Both the position numbers and the translations under genes were made by a program. Source: Caballeronia sp. SBC1 (GTDB taxonomy: Bacteria; Pseudomonadota; Gammaproteobacteria; Burkholderiales; Burkholderiaceae). Taken from it: a DNA stretch of 64,000 nt. The notes under the pieces were generated by a model. The model was not told where the DNA came from. It saw nothing but the letters and a program-made list of their open reading frames with translations, and did no database searches. The stretch lies in assembly GCF_011493005.1 (NCBI RefSeq), contig NZ_CP049159.1, forward strand, positions 496,001 through 560,000. Direction: 5' to 3'. Positions 1 to 6,512 of this stretch are shown here, piece after piece; positions within the stretch are counted from its first letter, which is position 1, and the number at the start of each line of letters is the position of its first letter.

Positions 1-1048
1 TCCGTTCGGCTTCAGACATTTTCCAGTTATCGCGGAGAGCTCTCATCAAGTAGCCAGCTGGACTCCTTTTCACCTGTCCGCGATTAATCTTGAAGCGAGT
101 GTATTCAACAGCTTGCTGGATGTGCGTATCGGTCCAGACCTCACGGTTCTCGGAAATCTCCGTAAACTGTTTAGTCGACAAGTTGAATTCATCCTTGAGA
201 ATCTTGTACAGGTGGCTGGCGTCAGCCAAGCTGGCCAAGACAGCATCGGCGGTATCCTTGCGCTTGAGCAGAAACCTTATGCGGTCGATTTTTTTCGATG
301 TGGTGGACTCGGTCCTGGTTTCATACGTCAAATCGATGTCCGATACCTCATTGATTTCACGCACCGCCGGCTCAAGCCAGTCCCGTTTGAAGTATTTGAA
401 GATAGCCGCGTTCGCACCCATTTTCCCGGGCCAATTTCGCATTTCTTCAAGCGGTATCCATTCCGTTCTGCCATCGGGGACGCTCGGCAGTATCTGGTCA
501 TAAATCGCTCGCGCCAGACTGCGTGTAAAAGCCGTCGAAATGCGCAAGCTTAGCCAGTGAGACTTTTTGGGGTCACGGATGTGTGGGACCAATCGAGGAT
601 GTACGTCGAATCGGATCCGTCCTCTGTGGAACCCTACCATCCCCAGCAGCTGGACTGAGACCCATAGGTCGTCTTCATTGGGGTCACGGTCGAGCGGCGT
701 ATCGGTCACCTGGATCTTCGCGTCCTGCGCTTCCTCTGCGATTGTGCGCAGGTGCTTTAGATTGCGGCTGTCATAGCGCATCAGCCATTTGAAGTAGTTC
801 AGTTCAACGTCATACTGATCTCGTGCTTCCTGTTCCTGGGCAACGATGAAATATGCAGCGTCAAGAAATCGCCGCGCCGGCAGGCCCATGTTGACGATCT
901 GCGTGAAAAAATTGTTCCGCTGATAGCCGATCTCACGGGTGGCTTCGCTGATGGGCATGCCCAGGTCGAACAGGTCCTCGAACAGCGCGAGCGCCATCTG
1001 GCGAGGTGTTACCCTCGACTTGCTTTCTTCAGGATTGTCCGCCGCCAT
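1..1048 (-). CDS. Replication initiator protein (Rep), 3' end beyond the window
   Basis: This gene encodes the probable initiator that binds the iterons next to it and starts replication of the replicon. About 349 codons are visible, running off the left edge. The protein begins MAADNPEESKSRV and continues PRQMALALFEDLFDLGMP, then GYQRNNFFTQIVNMGLPARRF, a layout I associate with Rep proteins of large Burkholderiales replicons (Rep_3/RepB-like winged-helix initiators). The ATG at 1048 is preceded by an in-frame TGA six codons upstream, so the start is well fixed, although the ribosome binding site is weak. It is transcribed away from the iteron region, the usual arrangement for an initiator that represses its own promoter through iterons. 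The family call rests on recognition and context; a profile search was not possible. Confidence 0.83.
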   Translation of the reverse strand, partial: MAADNPEESKSRVTPRQMALALFEDLFDLGMPISEATREIGYQRNNFFTQIVNMGLPARRFLDAAYFIVAQEQEARDQYDVELNYFKWLMRYDSRNLKHLRTIAEEAQDAKIQVTDTPLDRDPNEDDLWVSVQLLGMVGFHRGRIRFDVHPRLVPHIRDPKKSHWLSLRISTAFTRSLARAIYDQILPSVPDGRTEWIPLEEMRNWPGKMGANAAIFKYFKRDWLEPAVREINEVSDIDLTYETRTESTTSKKIDRIRFLLKRKDTADAVLASLADASHLYKILKDEFNLSTKQFTEISENREVWTDTHIQQAVEYTRFKINRGQVKRSPAGYLMRALRDNWKMSEAER

Positions 1049-1108
1049 AAGCTCATCAGCTGATCATTTCAATTGTTGCGAATGTAGCATGCATGGGTGA
1101 GCTGTCAA

Positions 1109-1433
1109 CACATACAACCTCACCCTCCTCCGGTCGCACGCGGATGTTTGTAGTGGTCAAGCTTGCACCACCTTGCCGATTTCGCACAATTAACCTCACC
1201 TATGCACAATCAACCTCACCACGTTGAACCTGTGCCCCACGGTAACGCCTTATTTCACGCCGCCGGCAACGACGCCTTCCCGGTACTGCACAGCCAACCT
1301 CACCTTTGCTAGAGCAGTTTTTTTCTGCACATCAAACCTCACCATTGCGCGAATTAAACCTCACCTTGGCCACACAACGACACTCACCTTCCTGCACAGC
1401 AAACCTCACCTTCGACACAAGGAATCTCACCTT
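1109..1433 (+). repeat. Left iteron array, forward orientation
   Basis: Copies end with the shared core AACCTCACC. Strong copies lie at 1184-1200, 1204-1220, 1288-1307, 1327-1343, 1348-1367 and 1394-1412. Weaker copies lie at about 1109-1124, 1377-1390 and 1414-1433. The first two strong copies are spaced 20 bp apart, close to two helical turns, while others are irregular. Confidence 0.85.
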
Positions 1434-1556
1434 TCTACAGTTAAATTGTTGAAATCAAAGGAAACAAGGGGACTCTGTTGGTAGGTTGGTGGGTTTAATT
1501 CTTTAAAAAAACAAACCAACTCGTCGCCAATACGTTGAGACGTGAGTTGCTGAAGA

Positions 1557-1814
1557 TGGTGAGGTTAGTTGTGCAGTGATGGGAAAAGAGACCGGTACGG
1601 AGGATGGCGAGCAAAATTCATGGTGAGGTCGATTGTGCATTGCATCACCGCTGGTCCGTGCTCGCGGGTTTTTCCACTAAAAATATATTAGGGAACGTCC
1701 AAAACACGCGATTGAAGGTGAGGTTAATTGTGCAGATTTACGCTTTGGCCTTTTTGCGGAGATTTTTCGCGCTTGTTCCGGAAATCCGGGTACGAAGGTG
1801 AGGTTGATTGTGCA
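1557..1814 (-). repeat. Right iteron array, inverted orientation
   Basis: Four well-conserved copies read as the reverse complement, core GGTGAGGT: 1557-1575, 1621-1639, 1715-1734 and 1795-1814. They are spaced 60-95 bp apart, wider than the left array. The first base after the core varies (TTA, TCG, TTG), the same position that varies in the left array. Confidence 0.85.
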
Positions 1815-2079
1815 CTTCAGATCCGGTCGAACGACGCCGTCAATAAGAACAGCACAATCGACCTCACCTTGAAAATCTCAGGAGCGATTGGAGAGCGGTC
1901 TAGCGGCGTGCACGAGACAACAACTACGTCGACTCATGATCGTCCCGAAGAGAAATTGAGTAGTTTTACGTTTCGCGAACGCGCTCTACAACGTTGTGAG
2001 TGAAACATCGGCTGTCGTTTTCACAGATTATTTCTATAATAAACAGCAATTTATAGAGCAATTTACAAGTCTTTCCTGT

Positions 2080-2119
2080 ATTCTGAGGTTAATTGAAATT
2101 TATGGAAAAACCTCAGAAT
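2080..2119. promoter_or_regulatory. parA operator candidate (inverted repeat over the start codon)
   Basis: Perfect 11-bp arms ATTCTGAGGTT (2080-2090) and AACCTCAGAAT (2109-2119) are separated by 18 bp. The right arm overlaps the parA ATG at 2118. ParA proteins with an N-terminal DNA-binding domain repress their own operon, so this is the expected place for the operator. The arms share the AACCT motif with the iterons but not the rest of the iteron. Confidence 0.6.
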
Positions 2120-3329
2120 GGTGAAAACGAGCCAACTTCCTGCTGTAGACCGAACTGTTCACCTTGAGCAAATTAGCCAATTTGCTGAAAAGGTCTCAAT
2201 TTTCACAGATGAACTTCGTGACACTATTCTCGCTCCACGGCCGAGAAAGGCTGCGCCTGTCTTTAAAACAGGGGAGATTGCCGAAATGTGCAATATCGCC
2301 CACTCGCAGGTTCAATACCTCGCCACCAAGAGTGACGGAGAGTTGCCGTCGGGCACCGCGGCAGGCACTGGCCGAACCCGGACCTTCACTCTAGAGGAAG
2401 CGCGCGTCTGGGTTCAGAAAGTCTCTGACATCTATCAGACTCCGCTTGTTACCGGGACACGCGAGCCTGAAGGGAAAATCATTATCACGGCTCAGTTAAA
2501 GGGGGGATCGGCAAAGACAACCACAACCATGTGCCTGGCACAAGGATTGACGTTGCGCGGGCGCAAGGTGCTGGTTGTCGACCTCGATCCGCAAGCCTCG
2601 CTTTCCGAGCTTTGTGGTCTTTACGCGGAAAAGGATGTGACGCCGGACGACACGATTCTGCCTTACATTTACGACCAGGACATTGAAGGTGGATTGGAAG
2701 CGAGAGTTCAGTCAACGTATTGGAATGGTCTTGATGTCATCCCGGCTCACACTGAATTGATTGGTGCAGAGTTTCATTTGCCCGCGATGCAGAAAATGAG
2801 GCCGGGATTTCGGTTTTGGACAGTACTGCGCCAAGGCCTGGAGCCGCTGCGCAAGCGTTATGACTACATTCTCATGGACACGTCGCCTTCTCTGTCGTAC
2901 CTCAACCTGAACGCGTTGCTGGCAGCCGATGCAATGGTTATGCCAATGGTCCCGGAGAATCTCGACTTCATTAGTTCGTTGTCGTTCTGGCGCCTGTTTT
3001 CTGATGTGTCCAAGAGCTTCATGAAATATGAGACTGACAAGAAATACGACTTTATTTCGCTGCTCCTTTCGAGGGTCGACTATGGCCGTACTTCGTCAGC
3101 GCCCATCGTGCGTGCGTGGGCACAAAGCGCCTACGAGAATTGGTTGCACTCGATTGAAGTGCCCGCGAGTTCTGTAATGAGTACGGGAGCGCTTGCGTTC
3201 TCAACGGTGTTCGACGTCAGCAGTACCCATAGCGCGTCAAAGTCGTTGCAGCGGGTTAGACAGCCTCTTGTCGATTACTGTCGTTGGATAGATGAAATCT
3301 ATGCGGAAAAATGGAGGAACGCGCAATGA
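2118..3329 (+). CDS. parA: Partition ATPase ParA (type Ia, with N-terminal DNA-binding region)
   Basis: ParA is the ATPase that moves ParB-bound plasmid copies apart over the nucleoid. The 403-residue protein has an N-terminal extension of about 110 residues with a MerR/HTH-like stretch around residues 48-95. It then carries a deviant Walker A box KGGSAKTTTT at residues 128-137 with both signature lysines, the following VVDLDPQAS segment, and a Walker B-like YILMDTSPS. The length and N-terminal domain match the larger autoregulatory type Ia ParAs. The ATG at 2118 follows the inverted repeat at 2080-2119 and is in frame with the whole domain; an ATG at 2102 is out of frame. It overlaps parB by four bases, implying coupled translation. 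Confidence 0.92.
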   Translation: MVKTSQLPAVDRTVHLEQISQFAEKVSIFTDELRDTILAPRPRKAAPVFKTGEIAEMCNIAHSQVQYLATKSDGELPSGTAAGTGRTRTFTLEEARVWVQKVSDIYQTPLVTGTREPEGKIIITAQLKGGSAKTTTTMCLAQGLTLRGRKVLVVDLDPQASLSELCGLYAEKDVTPDDTILPYIYDQDIEGGLEARVQSTYWNGLDVIPAHTELIGAEFHLPAMQKMRPGFRFWTVLRQGLEPLRKRYDYILMDTSPSLSYLNLNALLAADAMVMPMVPENLDFISSLSFWRLFSDVSKSFMKYETDKKYDFISLLLSRVDYGRTSSAPIVRAWAQSAYENWLHSIEVPASSVMSTGALAFSTVFDVSSTHSASKSLQRVRQPLVDYCRWIDEIYAEKWRNAQ

Positions 3330-4303
3330 GCAATATGCGTGAACAATTGCTGGCCAAGACGGCAGGCATACGGGCAACTTCGTCTATTAACGGAGACGAA
3401 GTGAAACGAAGCACTCGCACGCAAACGGCGCCTGGCCTCGCGGGAGCGTTGGCGGTTGCGCAGCTCCGTGTGCAAGAGCTGGAGTCCACCGGTGCCGCTT
3501 CGAAATTGGTTGTGTCCGACGTTGTGCCGAACCCCTGGCAGCCGCGTCGAGTATTCAACGAGGCGAAGCTGTCGGAGCTGGCGGAATCCATTCGTGAGGT
3601 CGGGCTCATGCAGCCCATCGTGGTACGCCGGTCCGAGGAAAACTATCAGATTGTGGCGGGAGAACGCCGGTGGCGCGCGCACAAGATGGTCGGGTTCGAC
3701 ACAATCAACGCGGTTGTTGTGGAGTGTTCCGACGCGGATATGGCGGTCTTGGCCCTAGTGGAAAATGTCAGCCGTGATGACCTATCTGACTATGAAGTCG
3801 CCACGTCCATCAGGCAAACGGAAAAGGAATTTCCCGACCGGAAACGGATGGCTGAGGCACTGGGTATGTCCCGCAGTGGGCTCTACCAGTTCCTCTCATT
3901 CGAGAATTTGCCGGACTTTATCAGGAAGGACTTGGACATTCAGCCGCGACTGCTTGGTGGAACCGCAGCCCAAGCGATTGTGACGGCCATCAAGAAGCAT
4001 GGCAACGGCGGTCTCACCGCTGCGCTGGAACTCTGGCCCCTCGTTGTGAAGGGTGATATGGACCAAGGTAAGGTCGCGGCGGCGATTAAAGCGTTGGCAA
4101 CTCGACAAACGACGACGGCCAACTCAGCGAGCGAGCGGAGCATTGACAAGTTCTTCTCGGGCAAAGAACACGCCGGCTCTATTACCAAGGACATTAGCGG
4201 TATCACGGTAAAGATCAAATCTGGCGTGCTGACTGACGTGCAGGAGACGCAGATAAGGGAGCTAATAAGCCAAATGTTCCACGCTCAGCCTAAAGCGAGC
4301 TGA
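3326..4303 (+). CDS. parB: Partition protein ParB (centromere-binding CTPase)
   Basis: ParB binds the centromere (parS) and spreads on DNA as a CTP-dependent clamp, working with ParA. The 325-residue product has the ParB/Spo0J core: NPWQPRRVF, then GERRWRAHK (the GERRxR nucleotide-binding motif), then LALVENVSRDDL, followed by a helix-turn-helix around MAEALGMSRSGLYQFL. The ATG at 3326 is chosen because it overlaps the parA stop as ATGA and has GGAGG at 3313-3317. An in-frame ATG at 3311 lacks such a site. A terminator follows at 4321, and palindromic parS candidates begin 60 bp after the gene. Confidence 0.93.
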   Translation: MSNMREQLLAKTAGIRATSSINGDEVKRSTRTQTAPGLAGALAVAQLRVQELESTGAASKLVVSDVVPNPWQPRRVFNEAKLSELAESIREVGLMQPIVVRRSEENYQIVAGERRWRAHKMVGFDTINAVVVECSDADMAVLALVENVSRDDLSDYEVATSIRQTEKEFPDRKRMAEALGMSRSGLYQFLSFENLPDFIRKDLDIQPRLLGGTAAQAIVTAIKKHGNGGLTAALELWPLVVKGDMDQGKVAAAIKALATRQTTTANSASERSIDKFFSGKEHAGSITKDISGITVKIKSGVLTDVQETQIRELISQMFHAQPKAS

Positions 4304-4320: not shown

Positions 4321-4347
4321 AAAGCCCGCCATGTGCGGGTTTTTTTT
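4321..4347 (+). terminator. Rho-independent terminator after parB
   Basis: The stem CCCGC/GCGGG (4325-4329 with 4335-4339) extends outward through A-T pairs. It has a 5-nt loop and is followed by a run of eight T from 4340. It lies 18 bp after the parB stop and probably ends the parAB transcript. Confidence 0.85.
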
Positions 4348-4362
4348 GTGCTGTCTCCAAGC

Positions 4363-4381
4363 GTGTCTAGAGTCTAGACAC
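4363..4381. promoter_or_regulatory. parS-like palindrome, copy 1
   Basis: GTGTCTAGAGTCTAGACAC is a perfect 9+1+9 palindrome, and one further C/G pair extends it to 4362-4382. The odd-length symmetry with a central G/C recalls the KorB operator type of ParB-family proteins. It sits just after parAB, the commonest place for a plasmid centromere. Function is inferred from position and symmetry only. Confidence 0.6.
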
Positions 4382-4430
4382 GGAGCAGATATGGCGGCCC
4401 GGTCCGGAATCCATTTTGCAGCATATAGTC

Positions 4431-4449
4431 GTGTCTAGACTCTAGACAT
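4431..4449. promoter_or_regulatory. parS-like palindrome, copy 2
   Basis: It matches copy 1 at all positions except the last base and has C instead of G at the centre. Its centre is 68 bp from the centre of copy 1. Confidence 0.58.
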
Positions 4450-4480
4450 GGCGCCCGTAGCGTTGACACCCGCATGCCCA

Positions 4481-4499
4481 ATTTTTAGAGCCTAGAAAC
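4481..4499. promoter_or_regulatory. parS-like palindrome, degenerate copy 3
   Basis: About 14 of 19 positions agree with the palindrome of copy 1, including the TAGAG centre and CTAGA of the right arm. It may be a weak or decayed site. A further half-site (TCTAGAC) lies near 4598. Confidence 0.35.
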
Positions 4500-5237
4500 G
4501 CGCGTGGACAGCCAACGGTCAAGCCGCGCTATCGTCACCGCGCGATACCTGGGAGTCTGACCGAGCACGCCGGCAGATCAGCCGAACGGACCAGCGAGTC
4601 TAGACGCGCGCGTTAGGCCTTGGTGCGGAGATCCATTTGCAACTCTGTTGACTGTTGATTCCCTGCTCGGCAGGTATGTAGAGATTGAAAATGTCGCCAC
4701 GCGGCATGGCAATTACGCTTGTCTGGTGCCTAAAGGCCGCGGTCACAATAGAAAAATCCGTCCCTCAGAAAAGCAGCAAAGAGTTTCCGTGGCCACAACG
4801 CCGGAGACCGTATCAAAACCATGCCGGGATACAGCGCGACCGTCCTTGCCCGGGTGACGTCCGCAATCTGGTTGGTCGCTGATGCTCGTGGCCGGGCATC
4901 TTCTCGAAGGCTGCTTGTTCCTTTGCGATTGCTTCGGGCCTGTCTGGGCCGTCGGAGGGCACGTGTGAAGGCAAGCCACAGGACACTGAGGTACCGACGC
5001 AAGCGCGCGAGAGCTGGCTTTGCTGGGGATTCGCGAGTTCAGGGCGAGGACTTGTTTCAGGCTTCAAGTCTGGCGGAAGAGCTTCTGCGGACCGCCGTTT
5101 TACGTGTTCCAGTTGCTCGGGCAATTGCGATATCGGTGACCTCGGCCCGCCGGCACTTTGCTGTGCGCCCTCAGCGCCTTCCGCCCGAGCGTGTCTGTCG
5201 ACTGACGCGCCGGGTGAATTTCCACGTAGCGACAGCC
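4500..5237. other. Region without a convincing gene
   Basis: Several short open frames occur here on both strands, but they overlap each other, are rich in Arg/Pro/Cys, lack ribosome binding sites and match no family I know. The region lies between the parS-like copies and may simply be centromere-associated spacer DNA. Confidence 0.5.
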
Positions 5238-5288
5238 CCGTTCGTACCGATGCGTGTCTAGACTCTAGACACGCATCGGTACGAACGG
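5238..5288. repeat. Perfect 51-bp palindrome with a parS-like core
   Basis: Both 25-bp arms are exact reverse complements around a single C at 5263. The inner 19 bp (5254-5272) are the same palindrome as 4363-4381, with C at the centre. The outer 16 bp of each arm are not shared with the other copies. It lies 0.75-0.9 kb from the other copies, in DNA with no convincing gene. Confidence 0.8.
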
Positions 5289-5850: not shown

Positions 5851-6350
5851 ATGGCCACAACCAATCGTAGTGCGACCCGGCTGCCAGCGGAAGCGCTGGT
5901 TGCTGGCCATCGGGACCTGATGAAGGCCCTGATGAAGGACGCGCTGCAGGAAGTACTCGAAGCCGAGATGACGGAACAACTAGGCGCGACTTCCAACGAG
6001 CGCACCGAGGTGCGCAGCGGTTATGGCGCGGGCTACTGCGGCCGTGGCCTGATCCCGCGTATCGGCAAGCTCGAGCTGTGCGTGCCGCGCGACCGGCATG
6101 GCGAGTTCCCAACGGCCTTGTTTGAGCGCTACGCGCGCAGCGAGAGGCACTGGTCGCCCCCTCGCCGAAATGTATGTGCAGGGCGTGTCCACGCGCAAGG
6201 TGAAGGCGATTACGGTCACAGCTTCTCGGCCTCGGCGGTTTCGGCAATTAACAAGGGGCTGGACGCGACGCTGGCGAAGTTTGCGCATCGCCCGCTTGAG
6301 GAGGGCATACCTGTACCTGATGTCGATGCGTGCAGATCCATCTGCGGATA
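5851..6350 (+). pseudogene. IS256-family transposase, N-terminal remnant with frameshifts
   Basis: This was a mutator/IS256-type DDE transposase of roughly 400 residues. The remaining part covers about the first 165 residues: MKALMKDALQEVLEAEM, then GKLELCVPRDRHGEFP, then ALFERYARSE. The frame then slips to AEMYVQGVSTRKVKAIT in the next frame and slips back to GHSFSASAVSAINKGLDATL. The sequence leaves the family around 6350. At least two indels and the missing catalytic C-terminal part show it is dead. The DNA from about 5783 (GGGGTGGCC) may be the left end of the element; no matching right end was found. Confidence 0.85.
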
Positions 6351-6512
6351 GGACTTGCAAACTCGTGTCAGGCACCTCGCGATGAGATCGCGCGGAGACC
6401 CTATACGCAACTAACGGTCCCCTGCGGGAGCATACACAACAAACGCCACGCTCAACATTCAATGGCGGAAGACGCCTATTACTTGTCATCAACGAGTCGT
6501 GGCATTCGAGTA

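Follow-up and report, generated by a model that had tools for sequence, protein, structure and literature searches.

Palindromes downstream of parAB on a Caballeronia megaplasmid as the probable parS of a plasmid family whose sites change with their ParB

The parS2 site of Vibrio chromosome 2 is an odd palindrome that serves as the centromere of a secondary replicon, and the operator of KorB of plasmid RK2 is TTTAGCSGCTAAA. The chromosomal parS, TGTTTCACGTGAAACA, is an even site of 16 bp that is common across bacteria, and the parS sites of the Bsr group are 16-bp palindromes with a central CG, both as described in the available part of PMC5450999. According to the available part of PMC7383237, a few residues of the helix-turn-helix (HTH) region set the preference of ParB and Noc between parS and NBS, and residues R173, N178, G201 and R204 of the Caulobacter ParB are DNA contacts or specificity positions.

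Here, we analysed a stretch of 64,000 nucleotides of Caballeronia sp. SBC1 (NZ_CP049159.1, positions 496,001 to 560,000; hereafter the window), which is part of a 734-kb contig (C4) in a five-contig genome of 8,848,153 bases (8.85 Mb). The first 25 kb of the window are 100% identical to plasmid pSBC2-4 of Caballeronia sp. SBC2 (NZ_CP049320). The order along the window is rep, iteron-like repeats, parA, parB, a terminator-like hairpin and the palindromes, with the following features:

1..1048, minus strand: rep, replication initiation protein (pSBC2-4 annotation mapped onto the window; the other end lies beyond the window)
1106..1870, no strand assigned: iteron-like repeats of 17-22 bp, about GCACAAT[TC]AACCTCACC, 13 copies, 9 one way and 4 the other way
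2118..3329, plus strand: parA, Walker-type partition ATPase (AAA_31)
3326..4303, plus strand: parB, 325 aa, with a ParB_N domain, an HTH and the motifs GERRWR and ENVSRDD
3839..3907, plus strand: ParB HTH, helices 172-179 and 183-194 of the predicted structure
3875..3877, plus strand: codon of ParB S184; arm base 5 is G with K or R, and a different base with any other residue
3887..3889, plus strand: codon of ParB Q188; Q goes with A or G, and R or K with C, at arm base 7
3962..3964, plus strand: codon of ParB T213; arm base 8 is T with N, C with H, and A or G with T, S or A
3971..3973, plus strand: codon of ParB Q216; Q goes with CT at arm bases 5-6 of odd sites (21/21)
4321..4348, plus strand: hairpin plus T-run resembling an intrinsic terminator, between parB and the first palindrome
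4363..4381, no strand assigned: putative parS copy 1, GTGTCTAGAGTCTAGACAC, 0 mismatches, centre G
4431..4449, no strand assigned: putative parS copy 2, GTGTCTAGACTCTAGACAT, 1 mismatch, centre C
5254..5272, no strand assigned: putative parS copy 3, GTGTCTAGACTCTAGACAC, 0 mismatches, centre C
5238..5288, no strand assigned: perfect 51-bp palindrome surrounding copy 3; its left arm, 5238-5253, resembles a templated copy of the right flank

Judged by its sequence features, the locus is a type I ParABS system. The parA ATPase gene (AAA_31, E 6e-34) is in an operon with parB, which it overlaps by 4 bp; the product of parB carries a ParB_N domain (E 2e-31), scores 130 bits as parB_part against a cut-off of 58, and has Spo0J, ParB and Noc as its relatives in the PDB; and clustered palindromic cis sites lie beside parAB. 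We take the motifs GERRWR and ENVSRDD to have a role in a CTP switch. The repABC cut-offs were missed, with RepA at 191 bits against 348 and RepB at 62.5 against 201.5. The iteron-like repeats at 1106-1870, between rep and parA, are presumed to be the replication origin. A terminator scan gave 3 sites of the kind found at 4321-4348 against 4.0 in shuffles, so that hairpin is weak by itself.

A reading of the window made from its letters alone (the sequence-only reading) had described three near-identical odd palindromes after parAB, centred on G in one copy and on C in the others, and a degenerate fourth copy. The three copies are real: GTGTCTAGASTCTAGACAC matched three times downstream of parAB, starting at 4363, 4431 and 5254 with 0, 1 and 0 mismatches, and it had no match in 100 dinucleotide shuffles of the window. 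The centres are also as described, G at 4363-4381 and C at both 4431-4449 and 5254-5272. Random occurrence of the palindrome throughout the genome, which that reading had named as an outcome speaking against a centromere, was not seen, since the 15-bp core with at most one mismatch occurs only at the three window places in all 8,848,153 bases; the genome read backwards gave 0 core matches. The same genome encodes four other ParB-like proteins (E up to 1e-5), one on each of the other contigs, which are 26-37% identical to the window ParB. The fourth site, at 4481-4499 (ATTTTTAGAGCCTAGAAAC), is present with 5 mismatches, yet it is not kept in the relatives scanned, and we discarded it: at up to 5 mismatches it appeared, among loci L001-L051, only in those identical to the window, and it is missing at that place in the close relatives L153, L154, L155 and L193.

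Vibrio parS2, likewise an odd palindrome, probably has an unrelated sequence and frame. With the chromosomal system the locus shares an HTH-containing ParB and palindromes near the origin; comparison of the site sequences found no TGTTTCACGTGAAACA-like match in the window sites, which also do not match the chromosomal parS GTTNCACGTGAAAC from which they had been set apart at the outset. The Bsr systems are similar in being ParABS systems on Burkholderiales secondary replicons with palindromic, replicon-specific parS, and the available part of PMC5450999 likewise proposes the avoidance of cross-binding. The window family differs from them in having sites of 19 bp with a free centre, or of 18 bp without it, on a GTGT/ACAC frame. 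Judged by the definition in that part of PMC5450999 alone, membership in the Bsr group was rejected, as no 16-bp central-CG site was found, and the window palindromes are to this extent unlike the parS types of Burkholderia secondary replicons, as the sequence-only reading had held. The sole Bsr ParB compared, that of pBC, shares 28% identity with the window ParB over 189 aligned residues. In the open-access literature a search with the site strings found no partition paper, and no title or abstract start among the literature listings names this GTGT-NNNN-A site family.

The sequence-only reading had also proposed a search for the palindrome near parB in related megaplasmids. Our survey comprised 147 loci encoding ParB relatives with 51-100% identity, taken from plasmid records and genomes and containing 139 distinct parB-plus-100-bp sequences; the window copies L001-L003 and L022 were dropped before site calling. 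A recurring palindrome after parB was called automatically in 142 of the 147. In 128 loci, two or more copies fit the GTGT-NNNN-A frame, and the other 14 calls come from a laxer, frame-free fallback; the framed call on the same 147 loci read backwards gave 0/147. Measured from the end of the aligned parB stretch, the distance to the start of the first copy has a median of 83 nt in the 128 loci called by the frame (quartiles of 68 and 111 nt, range 21 to 1610 nt), and the median copy number is 3.

These positions bear on a reading in which the palindromes would be operators of a KorB-like global repressor rather than a centromere. The likeness to the KorB operator that had been seen in the letters is one of design only: both sites are odd palindromes with a free S centre, but the KorB operator has another sequence, is 13 bp long and serves a global repressor. 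KorB itself is a distant relative of the window ParB, weakly similar in structure, and its membership was rejected because the best solved relatives of the window ParB are Spo0J, ParB and Noc (E 1e-29 for Spo0J against 2e-9 for KorB) and Foldseek puts KorB below Noc and ParB. Since the sites are, in addition, confined to the region downstream of parB, absent from promoters across the replicon, and found after parB in nearly all of the surveyed loci, we consider the repressor reading very improbable.

Two geometries were found in the survey. The 19-bp form, present in 116 loci, has two 9-nt arms and one free centre base, and the 18-bp form, present in 26 loci, has two 9-nt arms without the centre base and is centred on AT. 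The outer GTGT/ACAC frame and the final A of the arm are nearly constant, while the inner four bases vary, with 22 distinct inner cores counted. The arms of the 19-bp form include GTGTCTAGA (the window), GTGTCCCAA, GTGTCCCGA, GTGTCCCCA, GTGTCTCCA, GTGTCAGTA, GTGTGCCTA, GTGTCCCTA, GTGTCTCTA and GTGTGTCGA, and those of the 18-bp form include GTGTCCGAA, GTGTCCGGA, GTGTCCTAA and GTGTTCTGA. Some Cupriavidus and Paraburkholderia sites deviate from GTGT at the outer bases, e.g. CCGTCCCAA and GAGTCCATA. Members of the family include such well-known replicons as pHG1 of C. necator H16, with GTGTTCCGA arms, and chromosome 3 of P. xenovorans LB400, with GTGTCTAGA. In several Cupriavidus loci (L034, L008, L009, L040, L042 and similar ones), 8-45 copies of the CCNTCCCAA class are arrayed with a spacing of about 39 bp, starting about 80 nt after parB.

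The five loci without a call are L117, L017, L068, L072 and L065. L117 has one perfect 18-bp site that fits the frame, the sequences of L068 and L072 stop within 275 and 137 bp of parB, respectively, and L065 has no site in the 1.76 kb downstream of parB. L017 belongs to a clade, together with L225, L226, L229 and L230, in which the caller finds no symmetric site. These five loci have in common an asymmetric 18-bp site, GTGTGCTA-N-TAGGCACAC, first found by eye, in 2-3 copies each, about 180-620 nt after parB. It consists of one 8-nt and one 9-nt half, the right half being the predicted GTGTGCCTA, and is apparently between the 19-bp and 18-bp forms. A conserved asymmetric site of Bsr 12J, described in the available part of PMC5450999, resembles it.

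To relate the sites to their proteins, the 142 loci were thinned to 79 training representatives with less than 95% identity, and every ParB column was compared with each arm base; L017 was kept out of training, as the automatic call there was a chance GC repeat. The 18-bp sites were read with a register shift of one position, fitted to the training data. Two residues of the HTH region are predictive, 188 for arm base 7 and 213 for arm base 8. At residue 188, Q goes with A or G (21/21) and R or K with C (58/58), which accounts for all 79 representatives; at residue 213, N goes with T (22/22), H with C (6/6), and T, S or A with A or G (51/51), again 79/79, although the rules are coarse in that T, S or A at 213 permits two bases. 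Restricted to the 19-bp sites, where no shift is needed, both rules hold in 64/64. By bias-corrected mutual information, 188 is the top ParB column for base 7 and 213 the top column for base 8. Arm bases 5 and 6 are associated with residues 184 and 216 in the sequences compared, K or R at 184 accompanying G at base 5 in 8/8. For bases 5 and 6, no HTH column came first by mutual information, columns outside the HTH ranking first, so ancestry is not separated there.

The predicted ParB structure has a mean pLDDT of 69.6, with values of about 70-90 over residues 171-220. Its second HTH helix (183-194) contains 184 and 188, and a later helix (212-225) has 213 and 216 at its start. Residues 183, 188, 194, 212 and 216 of the window ParB align with Caulobacter R173, N178, A184, G201 and R204, 216 being beside an alignment gap and the Caulobacter numbering offset being derived from the residues named in the available part of PMC7383237. 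By this alignment, the rule residues 184, 188, 213 and 216 lie at or next to R173, N178, G201 and R204. The likeness to the ParB/Noc case, as far as the available part of PMC7383237 presents it, is that a handful of HTH-region residues fixes site preference. The difference is that the work described there concerns parS and NBS, both of them fixed, together with intermediates made in the laboratory, whereas here more than 20 natural arm cores and a length change are found in one plasmid family.

The rules were recorded before a held-out set of 80 genome loci was fetched, 54 of which were removed for being at least 97% identical to a training ParB. A site was called in 24 of the 26 loci left, L225 and L229, of the asymmetric-site clade, giving no automatic call, and all 24 were correct at base 7, at base 8 and in having G or not G at base 5. 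When redundancy was removed, 19/19 were correct, against a permuted mean of 5.8 and a maximum of 13 in 2000 permutations. The caller used for the held-out set, which accepts single copies too, made 0/26 calls on reversed DNA and 4/78 on shuffled DNA. A second held-out set consisted of nine plasmid records, hand-picked from 58, mostly for low identity, before their sites were seen; 8/9 were called, and 8/8 were correct at bases 7 and 8, three of these eight ParBs (L238, L243 and L245) being 96-98% identical to training ParBs. For 29 held-out loci with a call, a set that leaves out these three and L237 (no automatic call), we scored bases 7 and 8 alike for the rules and for copying the site of the nearest ParB. 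The rules were correct in 29/29 and copying in 23/29; below 80% identity, the values were 8/8 and 2/8, these eight loci representing four lineages (L213/L214/L218, L223, L224 and L240/L241/L242). The cases that discriminate the rules from copying are L213, L214, L224 and L240-L242.

Sulfuricystis pSTJ1 (L237), from another order and with a ParB of 43.8% identity, has three 19-bp sites, GTGTTGG[CT]A-A-T[AG]CCAACAC, inside the parB coding sequence (L237:3802-3898) with 39-bp spacing. The 213 rule fails in this locus from outside the Burkholderiaceae, base 8 being C or T, and residue 188 is D, which is outside the rules. In this one case, the frame and the length extend beyond the family and the rules as written do not.

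The agreement between residues and bases could be due to shared ancestry alone, with no recognition involved. Many of the loci are related, the 188 class changes just 5 times on the tree, and the columns ranking first for bases 5 and 6 fall outside the HTH. We nevertheless find this explanation very improbable. On a tree built without residues 178-222, parsimony gives about 15 changes for the 213 class, 5 for the 188 class and 3 for the 184 class, and the residue and base classes agree in 94/94 representatives, training and held-out together. Copying from neighbours fails below 80% identity, where the rules succeed, and the rule positions lie at or beside ParB/Noc DNA contacts known from the available part of PMC7383237. 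Residue patterns at 183-185 and 216-217 were considered as a rule for the 18-bp form and dropped, as they gave no clean separation and the form has a single origin on the tree.

The close tracking of ParB HTH residues by the arm bases, held-out loci included, also bears on whether the sites are bound by a protein other than ParB, such as a recombinase or the product of a tyrosine-integrase gene, often encoded downstream. Several relatives do have a gene of the phage-integrase family, with its nearer end 0.4-2.5 kb beyond parB, but some annotated stretches have no integrase gene (plasmid annotation being incomplete), and we regard binding by such a protein as extremely improbable. Comparison across loci instead supports the 19-bp palindromes as the parS, or centromere, of the adjacent ParB on the Caballeronia megaplasmid. 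Taken together, the most probable reading by far is a type I ParABS system that uses the 19-bp palindromes as its parS, with sites that change with their ParB and with the 51-bp palindrome treated below as a probable by-product.

Each arm of GTGTCTAGA-S-TCTAGACAC would be bound by one HTH of a ParB dimer, and ParB would load and slide as a CTP clamp and ParA would move the complex. One clade has a site that is one base pair shorter, at 18 bp, with no centre base. With diverged sites, related replicons that occupy the same cell would each keep a centromere of their own. Among the fetched systems, which are those that this comparison covers rather than every system of the 24 genomes concerned, 35/36 same-genome pairs differ in the core; between genomes, 800/7839 pairs (10.2%) share it, which leads to an expectation of about 4 of the 36. 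This divergence fits selection for compatibility, though it is suggestive only and weak by itself. The exception is G307, in which contigs C3 and C4 (L141 and L142), of 793,818 and 793,876 bases, encode ParBs that are equally identical to the query and have the same site class; they are either a duplicated replicon or one replicon that was possibly assembled twice.

What is notable here, as judged from comparative data, is the combination of readable residue-base rules and a natural length change of one base pair. For related plasmids to coexist in a cell, cross-reaction between their partition systems has to be avoided. In this single protein family, more than 20 arm cores occur naturally, the site of a ParB not seen before can be predicted in part by the rules, and site length has changed in nature. 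The evolution of replicon specificity thus becomes directly testable, and orthogonal ParB-parS pairs might be used to label or stabilise DNA.

Copy 3 lies within the 51-bp palindrome, whose arms, 5238-5262 and 5264-5288, were confirmed as 25 nt each, 100% complementary and 1 nt apart. The sequence-only reading had raised the doubt of an assembly error; the palindrome and its surroundings are also present in the separately deposited pSBC2-4 (NZ_CP049320), within the 25 kb at 100%, which argues against a one-off error, with the caveat that the SBC1 and SBC2 strains may be near-identical or sequenced together. The orthologous copy-3 sites of relatives have perfect arms of just 7-11 nt. On the right, the flank in the window resembles that of the relatives except for a 2-nt gap; on the left, it exceeds theirs by 4 nt and matches the reverse complement of the right flank exactly. 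A second case is copy 1 of Paraburkholderia PGU19 (L006), a 43-bp palindrome whose left flank, ccgggcaacggt, mirrors its right flank; the close relatives L005 and L007 retain another left flank, ending gctgccggt.

Of the 205 perfect sites, 15 continue as a palindrome for at least 6 nt beyond the arm, a count that overstates the number of extension events because related loci are not independent, and 93 show no extension. The expected number of such extensions was 0.2 when flanks were shuffled freely and 2.0 when they were shuffled within class, a procedure that leaves single-member classes unshuffled, with at most 5 in 1000 shuffles. Few of the extended palindromes can be polarised.

Two explanations were weighed for these extensions. 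The 51-bp palindrome could have been selected as a structure, such as a cruciform, a set of extra ParB contacts or a resolution site; it folds strongly as single-stranded DNA (-32.7 kcal/mol, z -11.9), and extended palindromes around parS recur in unrelated flanks. We judge this unlikely in view of the short perfect arms of the orthologous sites, the one-sided mirroring in L006, whose two close relatives keep a different left flank, and the 93 perfect sites without any extension. On the simplest reading, template switching at the parS hairpin probably produced the 51-bp palindrome as a by-product of mutation: the parS palindrome would fold into a hairpin, and DNA synthesis would copy one flank onto the other. 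Template switching has been reported for quasi-palindromes in yeast (available part of PMC3820800). Any need for the 51-bp palindrome is not borne out by the relatives, and the palindromic flank resembles a one-sided copy.

For the wider picture we lean, with some reserve, towards a view in which Burkholderiaceae megaplasmids have diversified their centromeres on a GTGT-NNNN-A frame with or without a centre base, a near-modular code (residues 184, 188, 213 and 216) and a 1-bp length change would let several sister systems share a cell, and the palindromes would also be seeds at which templated mutation extends the flanks into long perfect palindromes.

Two further observations concern the surroundings of the locus. 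Between the parS cluster and speB, the window has an apparently short open frame at 5851-6351, which is a transposase according to the pSBC2-4 annotation. Contig C4 measures 734 kb and pSBC2-4 377 kb, though the two are identical over the 25 kb compared, and this difference in size possibly reflects a replicon fusion or a large insertion.
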